A stretch of 64,000 nt of DNA. It comes from Flagellimonas lutaonensis (lineage in GTDB: Bacteria; Bacteroidota; Bacteroidia; Flavobacteriales; Flavobacteriaceae). Under the pieces are notes generated by a model that was given only the letters and a program-made list of their open reading frames with translations, ran no database searches and had not been told where the DNA came from. Below are positions 526 to 3,682 of the stretch, piece by piece (the stretch's first letter is position 1; the number at the start of each line of letters is the position of its first letter). The DNA lies in contig NZ_CP011071.1 of assembly GCF_000963865.1 (NCBI RefSeq), forward strand, positions 3,088,001 to 3,152,000, given 5' to 3'. The position numbers and the translations under genes are program-made.

Positions 526-575
526 CAGGTCGGTCAGGGCGCTACTAATTTTTTACCTGGCCGACCTGTTTTTTT
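526..575 (+). terminator. Intrinsic terminator overlapping the end of the convergent repressor gene
   Basis: Arms CAGGTCGGTCAGG (526-538) and CCTGGCCGACCTG (556-568) pair over 13 positions with one G-U. A run of seven T follows at 569-575 on the plus strand. This fits an intrinsic terminator for the small secreted gene. The right arm lies inside the last codons of the minus-strand LexA-like gene, which stops at 545. Confidence 0.75.
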
Positions 576-1306
576 AACTCTTCCATCGACTGTTGCAACT
601 GCTTGAGCAATCCACGCTCTGTGGTGGCGTTCACATCAAAGGTAAGCTTGCTGCTAACCTCCCAAATCTCCTGTATTTGAAAGGGTTTGATGTCGTACGG
701 CGGATACGCCTCGTTAAGCGAGACCAAGGTGATATTGTTAGAATTGGGCCTTCGCTCTATTTTTTTGACCATTACGGAGTCTTGCAACACCACTACGTAC
801 ATCTTATTTGCATTGACGTGGTCAATATGTTCAATGGCACGGGCCAGCACCCAATCGCCCGGTCTCAGGTTGGGGAGCATACTGTCGCCCTCTACCTGAA
901 AACCGCGGTACGTGGCGTTTCTAAATTCGGGTATCGGCATATCGAACGCCGGTAGTTGCCGGTACCAACTGGTGTCTGTTATGTTCTGCGGATAACCGGC
1001 CGCCGCCTTGGCATTGACCAACACCATATTGTCTTGGTCTGAGGTATCGACTGTCACCACTTTTGGTATGACACTGACTTTCGAGGTCTCAAGATATTTT
1101 TCATCGCTCTCACCAAAAAGCCATAGCGGGTTGATTTTAAATTGGCGCAACAGTTCGGTCACTACCTTGCCCGATAGCTTCGTGCGCCCACGCTCAATAT
1201 CGGCCGTGGTGTTTGATACGCCCAACAATTCGGCAAACTCGGTCTGTGTGTAATCGAGTTCCCGCCTAATTTCGACAAACCGTTTTAGTGTGATTTCGTT
1301 TTCCAT
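545..1306 (-). CDS. LexA-like transcriptional repressor (XRE-type HTH + S24 peptidase)
   Basis: The 253-residue protein has an N-terminal XRE-type helix-turn-helix (about residues 9-55) and a C-terminal S24/LexA-type self-cleavage domain. The expected catalytic parts are visible: a cleavable Ala103-Gly104 pair (KAAAGY), the serine in EGDSMLPNLRPGD (Ser142) and the lysine in VMVKKIERR (Lys181). Spacing resembles LexA and lambda-CI-type repressors that self-cleave on RecA filaments. A short coiled-coil-like tail (LKQLQQSMEELKKQV) follows. It is divergent from a radical SAM DNA-repair gene, and the shared intergenic region holds repeated near-palindromes, so it probably represses that gene. Whether it is the cell's SOS regulator or a local one cannot be told from here. 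Confidence 0.9.
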   Translation of the reverse strand: MENEITLKRFVEIRRELDYTQTEFAELLGVSNTTADIERGRTKLSGKVVTELLRQFKINPLWLFGESDEKYLETSKVSVIPKVVTVDTSDQDNMVLVNAKAAAGYPQNITDTSWYRQLPAFDMPIPEFRNATYRGFQVEGDSMLPNLRPGDWVLARAIEHIDHVNANKMYVVVLQDSVMVKKIERRPNSNNITLVSLNEAYPPYDIKPFQIQEIWEVSSKLTFDVNATTERGLLKQLQQSMEELKKQVGQVKN

Positions 1307-1428
1307 TTTTCGTGCTATTTTTAATTCCCGCGTGGGTAGGAATCCATCGCTGCTCCATCATCGGGTCTCGACTGCTCCCTATTGGCATATGGACGATCTG
1401 ACAGAATATCCCAAATATACGTGAATTA

Positions 1429-1503
1429 GGAATATATCCAAAAATTGTTTTGGAATATTTCCATATATTGGAATATTTCCATATTTTTGATTGGAATATT
1501 TCC
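1429..1503 (+). promoter_or_regulatory. Array of four GGAA-N3-TTCC-type operator candidates
   Basis: Near-palindromic 11-mers occur at 1429-1439 (GGAATATATCC), 1452-1462, 1470-1480 and 1493-1503 (the last three all GGAATATTTCC). Start-to-start spacing is 23, 18 and 23 bases. The last copy ends 5 bases before the ATG at 1509 and would cover the promoter or ribosome entry region of the radical SAM gene. They lie between that gene and the divergent LexA-like repressor, the obvious candidate to bind them. This function is inferred; the repeats themselves are seen directly. Confidence 0.7.
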
Positions 1504-1508
1504 AAGTC

Positions 1509-2771
1509 ATGAACTTCGAACGTATCAAAGAAAAACTTAACATATTGGCCGATGCGGCAAAATACGATGTGTCATGTGCCAGCAGTGGCAGTACGCGTGC
1601 CAACAAGAACAAAGGGCTGGGCAACAGTACCGGAATGGGCATCTGCCATAGCTATACCGAAGATGGGCGCTGCGTGTCGCTGCTGAAGATTTTGTTGACC
1701 AATCATTGCATTTACGATTGTGCCTATTGCGTAACACGGCGAAGCAACGATGTAAAACGTGCTGCCTTCAAGATCCAAGAAGTGGTAGACCTGACTATTA
1801 ATTTTTATCGTCGGAATTATATAGAGGGCCTATTCTTGAGTTCCGGTATATTTAAAAATCCCGAATATACCATGGAACGCTTGGTGGCGGTGGCCAAAAA
1901 ACTGCGTGAGGAAGAAAATTTTAATGGCTACATCCATCTTAAGTCCATTCCCGGGGCAAGCGATGAATTAATGTATGAGGCCGGGTTGTATGCAGACCGT
2001 CTATCGGTCAACATAGAAGTCCCCACCATTTCCGGCCTCAAATTATTGGCCCCTGACAAAAAGCACGAAGATTTTACCAAGCCGATGTTGAAGGTGAAAA
2101 ACGAGATTGCCCGTTATCGCAATGAACGGAAAATCATCCGAAGTACCCCAAAGTACGCCCCAGCGGGCCAGAGTACCCAAATGATTGTCGGTGCGTCGGG
2201 TGAGACCGACAAAGACATTATATATTCGGCCACCTTCTATTATAAAAAGTACCAGATGAAGCGGGTGTACTATTCGGGCTATGTGCCGGTATTGCAAGAC
2301 AGCCGACTGCCCGCTGTAGGTACGCAGGTGCCCATGCTACGCGAGAACCGCCTTTACCAGACCGATTGGCTCTTACGATTTTACGGTTTTGCCGTAAACG
2401 AGATCTTGAATGACGCCCACCCGAATTTAGAGGTGGACATTGACCCCAAACTGTCGTGGGCGCTGCGAAACCTACACCTTTTTCCGGTAGATGTGAACAA
2501 GGCCGATAAGCATATGTTGGCGCGGATTCCTGGTGTGGGCATGAACTCTGTAAACAAGATTTTACAGGCCAGAAAAATTAGAAAACTGAACTGGGACCAT
2601 CTCAAAAGAATTGGGTTGGCCCTCAACCGTGCCAAATTCTTTGTGGTGTGCGATTCACGTCGTTGGGAACACCGCGATCTGGATGCGGAAAAAATCAAAG
2701 GGATGATTCTGCAAACTTCCACTGGCAAGTTTCGGAATCAGTACAGCAAGCAGTTGACGTTGTTCAATTGA
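1509..2771 (+). CDS. Putative DNA modification/repair radical SAM protein (UDG-linked type)
   Basis: The 420-residue product has the radical SAM cysteine triad CX3CX2C (CIYDCAYC, residues 67-74), which holds a 4Fe-4S cluster for S-adenosylmethionine cleavage. Three earlier cysteines (23, 46, 55) could bind a further metal or cluster. A helix-hairpin-helix lies near the C terminus (IPGVGMNSVNKILQARKI), as in DNA-binding repair proteins. This matches the family I know as TIGR03916, usually paired with a DUF4130/TIGR03915 protein and often with UdgX. The partner follows 134 bases downstream. I chose the ATG at 1509 over a TTG at 1491 because the TTG overlaps the last operator copy. Substrate and reaction are unknown for the family. 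Confidence 0.88.
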   Translation: MNFERIKEKLNILADAAKYDVSCASSGSTRANKNKGLGNSTGMGICHSYTEDGRCVSLLKILLTNHCIYDCAYCVTRRSNDVKRAAFKIQEVVDLTINFYRRNYIEGLFLSSGIFKNPEYTMERLVAVAKKLREEENFNGYIHLKSIPGASDELMYEAGLYADRLSVNIEVPTISGLKLLAPDKKHEDFTKPMLKVKNEIARYRNERKIIRSTPKYAPAGQSTQMIVGASGETDKDIIYSATFYYKKYQMKRVYYSGYVPVLQDSRLPAVGTQVPMLRENRLYQTDWLLRFYGFAVNEILNDAHPNLEVDIDPKLSWALRNLHLFPVDVNKADKHMLARIPGVGMNSVNKILQARKIRKLNWDHLKRIGLALNRAKFFVVCDSRRWEHRDLDAEKIKGMILQTSTGKFRNQYSKQLTLFN

Positions 2772-2905: not shown

Positions 2906-3682
2906 ATGAAACCATCAAAAACCCTAATCTACGACGGAAGCTTCAATGGCTTTCTTACTTCGGTCTTCGTGGCATTTGACGAGAAAATCAACGTGGCCGA
3001 TATTCAAAAGAACGGTCAAGGCCAGAACGGACTTTTTTCTGATACCGAGACCATTTTTACAAATGTCGACAAGGCCAAACGTGTATGGAACGGCATCCGA
3101 AGCAAAAGCTATAACGCCATTACCAATATCTACTTTGCCTTTTTGAGTGAGGAAGAGGGCATTGAGTTGTTGCTCTACACCTATATTCAAAAATTAATGG
3201 CCGCGAAAAAGGGCAAAGAAATGGATTATTCAGATGGGTTTGTGCTCAAAATAAGCCAGTTGGCCCGGTCCGTAGGCCGTGAAAAGCACCGTATGGAAGC
3301 TTTTGTGCGGTTTCAATTGACCAAAGACAATATTTACTTTGCCAATATTGAACCGGATTTTGATGTGTTGCCCTTGATTTCCAAACACTTTCGTAACCGC
3401 TACGCCGACCAGCAATGGCTTATTTACGACGTAAAGCGCAGGTATGGAATCTATTATGACTTGGAAGGTGTTGAAATCGTTTCGTTGGATTTGAACGAGA
3501 TCTACTTCAACCGTACCCGAAAAAGCAAGGTCTTTGCCGAAAAGGAGTATGACTACCAAGAACTGTGGAACGATTATTTTAAAAGCACCCACATCAAATC
3601 AAGGATCAACCGAAAACTGCATACGCAACATGTGCCCAAACGGTATTGGAAGTATTTGTCAGAGAAAAAAGAGGCTGTTTAG
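2906..3682 (+). CDS. Putative DNA repair protein, TIGR03915/DUF4130 type
   Basis: The 258-residue protein begins with the typical YDGSFNGFL stretch and ends with PKRYWKYLSEK, both hallmarks of the TIGR03915 (DUF4130) family found beside radical SAM repair proteins. It is soluble with no signal peptide and is rich in basic and aromatic residues. In many bacteria this domain is fused to a UdgX-type uracil-DNA glycosylase; here the protein ends after the DUF4130 part and no glycosylase gene is nearby. It follows the radical SAM gene on the same strand after a repeat-filled 134-base spacer, so co-transcription from the operator-controlled promoter is likely. Biochemical role unknown. Confidence 0.85.
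   Translation: MKPSKTLIYDGSFNGFLTSVFVAFDEKINVADIQKNGQGQNGLFSDTETIFTNVDKAKRVWNGIRSKSYNAITNIYFAFLSEEEGIELLLYTYIQKLMAAKKGKEMDYSDGFVLKISQLARSVGREKHRMEAFVRFQLTKDNIYFANIEPDFDVLPLISKHFRNRYADQQWLIYDVKRRYGIYYDLEGVEIVSLDLNEIYFNRTRKSKVFAEKEYDYQELWNDYFKSTHIKSRINRKLHTQHVPKRYWKYLSEKKEAV

Follow-up and report, generated by a model that had tools for sequence, protein, structure and literature searches.

The intergenic region between a LexA-like gene and a divergently transcribed DNA repair gene in Flagellimonas lutaonensis carries four nearly identical short palindromes, and the question that this locus raises is which regulator recognizes them and which genes are placed under their control. To address it, we analyzed the window (the whole stretch of 64,000 nucleotides), the rest of the 3.27 Mb genome and the corresponding loci of related bacteria. 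The features of the locus are the following.

545 to 1306, minus strand: S24 repressor gene, 253 aa, with a CI-type HTH (HTH_3) and a Peptidase_S24 domain
1412 to 1419, minus strand: predicted -7 element of the S24 gene, TATATTTG
1429 to 1439: predicted operator site 1, GGAATATATCC, one base off sites 2-4, within the predicted S24 promoter
1439 to 1441, minus strand: TTG predicted as the -33 element of the S24 gene, overlapping the end of site 1 and separated by 19 nt from the -7 element
1452 to 1462: predicted operator site 2, GGAATATTTCC
1470 to 1480: predicted operator site 3, GGAATATTTCC, with a single base between it and the -7 element of the repair gene
1482 to 1489, plus strand: predicted -7 element of the repair operon, TATTTTTG
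1493 to 1503: predicted operator site 4, GGAATATTTCC, covering the predicted transcription start, with 5 nt between its end and the ATG at 1509
1509 to 2771, plus strand: putative DNA modification/repair radical SAM protein (TIGR03916), 420 aa, 669.1 bits against a cut-off of 343.5
2906 to 3682, plus strand: putative DNA repair protein (TIGR03915, DUF4130), 270.9 bits against a cut-off of 112.25

The array at 1429-1503, between the S24 repressor gene and the divergent radical SAM repair gene, consists of four GGA-N5-TCC boxes with start-to-start distances of 23, 18 and 23 bases. The initial annotation had described four near-palindromes, three of them identical, at these distances, the last ending 5 bases before the repair gene ATG, and both the coordinates and this last distance proved correct. 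Counted one by one, the boxes show no clear excess in the window or in the genome: allowing at most one mismatch, the window has 6 occurrences of the 11-mer where 2.35 are expected (at least 6 occurrences in 6 of 100 shuffles), and GGAANNNTTCC shows no enrichment genome-wide, with 63 sites compared to 102 for the reversed control. These counts would suit an explanation of the array as a chance cluster of AT-rich near-repeats. The striking part is the clustering, with 4 of the 10 GGA-N5-TCC occurrences of the window inside the 75-base span of the array, and when the window was shuffled 400 times with dinucleotides preserved, three such boxes within 75 bases never arose. Given, in addition, that the array is kept in all of the best 80 of 208 relatives, a chance origin appears exceedingly improbable.

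The close-relative set comprises 80 S24 loci of named genomes (the best 80 of 208), mostly from Allomuricauda/Flagellimonas/Muricauda, Maribacter, Croceitalea and Croceivirga. Absence of the motif from orthologous intergenic regions, which the initial annotation had proposed as a check, was sought in this set and in the wider family, and the search did not bear it out. All of the best 80 of 208 relatives contain at least two boxes within 500 bases upstream of the S24 gene, and 79 contain at least three; once a single dyad mismatch is tolerated in the loci that require it (L081, L118), the spacing reads 22-23 then 18 in 79 loci and 23 then 17 in the remaining one, and the dyad of site 4 is intact in 45 of these 80. 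The family survey covered 249 genomes, 171 of them with an S24 match; the 95 proteins above a score gap (bits >220), the one under study included, were taken as orthologs, and the 94 others, which share 5 genomes with the best 80 of 208 relatives, were analyzed. A box is present within 600 bases upstream of the S24 gene in 92 of the 94, the orthologs in L199 and L250 having none within this distance. Within 250 bases, at least one box is found in 91 of the 94 and at least two in 87, with mononucleotide shuffles yielding 1.8% and 0.005%, respectively; in L165 the boxes sit at 334-357 upstream. Neither GGA-N5-TCC nor CTAA-N5-TTAG was detected within 500 bases of any of six remote S24 proteins picked from many remote matches (0/6 for each motif), and the CTAA box, the other published motif, additionally occurs within 300 bases in 4 of the 94 orthologs.

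The initial annotation knew of no described box of this sequence; however, the box reads GGA-ATATT-TCC, an instance of the GGA-N5-TCC motif that Sanchez-Osuna et al. 2021 (PMC8565304) reported, with EMSA and RT-qPCR, as the operator that the non-canonical LexA of Flavobacteriaceae recognizes. As described in the text of that article, two boxes exist in Bacteroidetes, GGA-N5-TCC mainly in Flavobacteriaceae and CTAA-N5-TTAG; the S24 regulator of S. agarivorans binds GGA-N5-TCC specifically in EMSA, and mitomycin C induced the tested genes, with the exception of S. agarivorans recA, as measured by RT-qPCR. The GGA-N5-TCC regulon presented there includes dinB, often with a polymerase III alpha subunit, SplB (COG1533), a COG1573-COG4277 operon, umuDC, a COG2135 peptidase and the repressor gene itself, several promoters holding two or more motif instances; Muricauda and Maribacter are not mentioned in the main text (PMC8565304).

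The protein encoded next to the array shows the features expected of such a repressor. The presence of an S24 domain in the product of the gene initially annotated as LexA-like was confirmed (PF00717, 53.9 bits), along with an HTH_3 domain (PF01381, 33.2 bits), both above the cut-off; the LexA winged HTH (PF01726) is absent among the Pfam matches at E 0.001. Residues A103, G104, S142 and K181 are identical in all 94 orthologs, suggesting that Ala103-Gly104 is the likely cleavage bond and Ser142/Lys181 the likely catalytic dyad, an assignment based on motif context and on the S24 features named in the text of PMC8565304. Comparison with solved structures yielded a single weak and uninformative match, 8tac_A (chain named DBP48), at E 0.001.

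Following the suggestion in the initial annotation to search the genome for box pairs near repair genes, we screened both strands for tandem boxes separated by 6-14 bases, the first box having A or T as its fourth base. The screen returned three loci, whereas the reversed control returned none.

Tandem locus 1: the four-box array at the S24/radical SAM divergent promoter
Tandem locus 2, 1799132-1799161: 110 bases before dinB, the ORF of which overlaps a dnaE-type ORF
Tandem locus 3, 1619320-1619349: preceding a PA0069-family radical SAM gene

If the PA0069 type is equated with COG1533, tandem loci 2 and 3 match the published GGA-N5-TCC regulon. No box was seen near another dinB-like gene, at 1326202, in the 3.4 kb examined. 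Across the 249 genomes, the tandem pattern is found in 73 of the 95 genomes with an S24 ortholog, being absent from the other 22, and in 22 of the 154 without one; the respective means are 1.65 and 0.17 tandem sites per genome.

These distributions bear on the possibility that another regulator, rather than the neighboring S24 protein, binds the array. Such a regulator would have to account for the co-occurrence of the box with the S24 ortholog across genomes and for the position of the array in the repressor's own promoter; moreover, binding by a member of the repressor family has been published (PMC8565304), and the genome holds only one S24 match at E 0.001. We therefore consider another regulator very unlikely. 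The array is, in all likelihood, the shared operator of a divergent pair of SOS promoters and the predicted target of the adjacent S24 repressor, so that its four boxes probably regulate both the gene of a DNA-damage repressor and the DNA repair genes facing it. The initial annotation had proposed that the array looks like a binding site for the S24 repressor and might also be the damage box of this lineage; this gains support from the conservation of the array, from the tandem loci found at dinB-dnaE and at the PA0069-type gene, and from the published work (PMC8565304). Taken together, the data provide independent support from many genomes for GGA-N5-TCC as a Flavobacteriaceae damage box, which would predict damage-inducible genes in these bacteria.

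The divergent gene had been read as a radical SAM DNA repair gene, and its match to TIGR03916, far above the cut-off, bears this out. We presume that COG4277 of the published regulon corresponds to the TIGR03916 type. The TIGR03915 gene downstream is possibly co-transcribed with it. A uracil-DNA-glycosylase domain was not detected in the TIGR03915 protein, for which Pfam at E 0.001 returned PF13566 alone, in contrast to the TIGR03916-type radical SAM operon with a UDG described in the text of PMC8565304. The gene facing S24 varies among loci L157-L250, where TIGR03916, TIGR03915 alone, dinB, SRAP, uvrA (L218) and others are found; another type in the family is a small Lys/Glu-rich lipoprotein-like ORF. 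We also considered uvrA as a common neighbor of S24, but among the four loci so labeled a real uvrA ORF is present in L218 only; the matches behind the labels in L168, L182 and L194 have implausible offsets, and the divergent ORF there is of the TIGR03915 type by sequence. All four loci remain in the repair class, so the repair-class count given below (55 of 64) is unchanged. In Maribacter sp. ACAM166 (L102), the radical SAM frame contains early stops, so the gene may be broken or the assembly may be in error here.

The placement of the boxes relative to predicted promoters suggests how the operator might work. Flavobacterial promoters carry TTG at -33. The sigma-A consensus in these bacteria also includes TAnnTTTG at -12 to -5, as described in the text of PMC9723704. 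We examined 169 non-redundant loci (the best 80 of 208 relatives plus the 94 orthologs, with 5 shared genomes), 145 of which have the 22/23 pair. An S24-directed TAnnTTTG lies 8-11 nt past site 1 in 131 of these 145 (136 of 150 when the 5 duplicates are counted; 3% in shuffled flanks), and 123 of the 131 loci having this -7 element also have a TTG 16-23 nt from it. A third site is present in 120 non-redundant loci, and in 119 of these a single base separates site 3 from a TAnnTTTG that follows it. No TTG was found 17-23 nt upstream of the -7 element of the repair operon when this interval was read by eye. These positions place site 1 inside the repressor promoter, whereas sites 3 and 4 bracket the -7 element of the repair operon. 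Transcription is predicted to start near 1407 on the minus strand and near 1494 on the plus strand.

Under the proposed mechanism, the adjacent S24 repressor would be a non-canonical LexA whose HTH is of the phage CI type, and its dimers would bind the GGA-N5-TCC boxes, as demonstrated for a relative (PMC8565304). Sites 1 and 2 would shut the repressor's own promoter, resulting in autoregulation, with site 1 filling the gap between the predicted -33 and -7 elements; sites 3 and 4, flanking the predicted -7 element, would shut the TIGR03916-TIGR03915 operon. Upon DNA damage, RecA filaments would trigger self-cleavage of the S24 protein at Ala103-Gly104, as the conserved residues suggest, and cleavage would release both transcription units as well as dinB-dnaE and the PA0069-type radical SAM gene.

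Given that the box itself has already been published, the feature that stands out is its rigid, modular spacing around the repressor gene, where boxes occur as arrays with near-invariant distances; a strictly conserved, modular spacing is not described in the text of PMC8565304. Across the 94 loci, with 44-90% protein identity, the spacings of adjacent boxes cluster at 22-23 (72 cases) and 18-19 (61 cases). A pair at 17-20 bases is present in 55 of the 64 loci with a repair-gene neighbor (TIGR03916, TIGR03915, dinB, SRAP or uvrA) and in 2 of the 30 with other neighbors (Fisher 6e-14), a comparison in which relatedness is controlled coarsely and two of the "other" loci (L228, L238) end at contig edges. 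The difference is seen both below 65% S24 identity (18 of 25 repair vs 2 of 26 other neighbors) and above it (37 of 39 vs 0 of 4). In this genome, tandem loci 2 and 3 also have a spacing of 19 bases. In a by-eye tally among the tandem sites listed for ortholog genomes, with S24 and coding-looking rows dropped, 14 of 27 spacings were 19, a selective count to which we attach no evidential value.

Two interpretations of this regularity have to be weighed. The first is a modular composite operator, in which a 22-23 bp repressor pair is combined with an 18-19 bp repair module and adjacent dimers bind cooperatively as in the OR of phage lambda, in which case the flavobacterial SOS switch would retain the operator logic of a phage repressor; we put this forward tentatively, as a composite reading that is rather doubtful in its entirety. 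The alternative, that the 22-23 and 18-19 spacings are set solely by the positions of promoter elements and the dimers bind independently, without cooperativity, is quite possible, albeit short of probable. The distances of sites 1 and 3 to TAnnTTTG elements hardly vary, and the layout of the promoters could by itself keep these two sites in place; furthermore, the published EMSA mutagenesis covered the motif dyads and spacer, and the word "cooperativity" is absent from the main text (PMC8565304). What promoter anatomy would leave unexplained is that site 2 holds its distance although no promoter element was found for it, and that the 19-base spacing recurs at the two other tandem-box promoters. 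Cooperative binding of the lambda CI kind is an inference. The fixed spacing also makes the proposed phage origin of the SOS repressor testable through cooperativity.

The system resembles the published GGA-N5-TCC group of non-canonical LexA proteins in the combination of S24 with a PF01381 HTH, the Ala-Gly bond, the Ser-Lys pair and boxes in its own promoter, as well as in a regulon containing dinB with dnaE, a COG4277 radical SAM operon and a COG1533 radical SAM gene, the two COG equivalences being our assumption; it differs from that group in that a single divergent promoter carries four phased boxes and the second gene of the operon has no detectable UDG domain. As in canonical LexA systems, an S24 repressor has boxes both in the promoter of its own gene and at repair genes, but PF01726 is not matched and the box is unrelated to CTGT-N8-ACAG. 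The combination of a CI-type HTH with an S24 domain is shared with lambda CI, and so, approximately, is the spacing: neighboring sites of lambda OR and OL are about 23-24 bp apart, and the similar 23 bp of the array fits the CI-type HTH of the S24 repressor. Unlike lambda CI, the S24 gene is chromosomal and adjoins repair genes, an additional spacing of 18-19 bp is present, and cooperativity is putative.

A phage source of the array was also considered, but a protein query that reaches only close relatives found no close relative of the S24 protein in viral contigs. Matches to the tandem pattern occurred in two viral contigs, L262 and L263, and a variant pattern matched none; the two L263 matches fall within a repeat inside an open reading frame, and the single L262 match overlaps a small ORF.

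Exact single boxes occur inside genes too, and beside an integrase gene. Exact copies of GGAATATTTCC are located at C1:1819025 and 1819604 (L143:4026 and 4605), one 3' of tRNA-Asp(GTC) and the other inside the adjacent tyrosine recombinase gene, an arrangement that suggests a tRNA-integrated element; these boxes could be there by chance or could belong to a damage-linked integrase.
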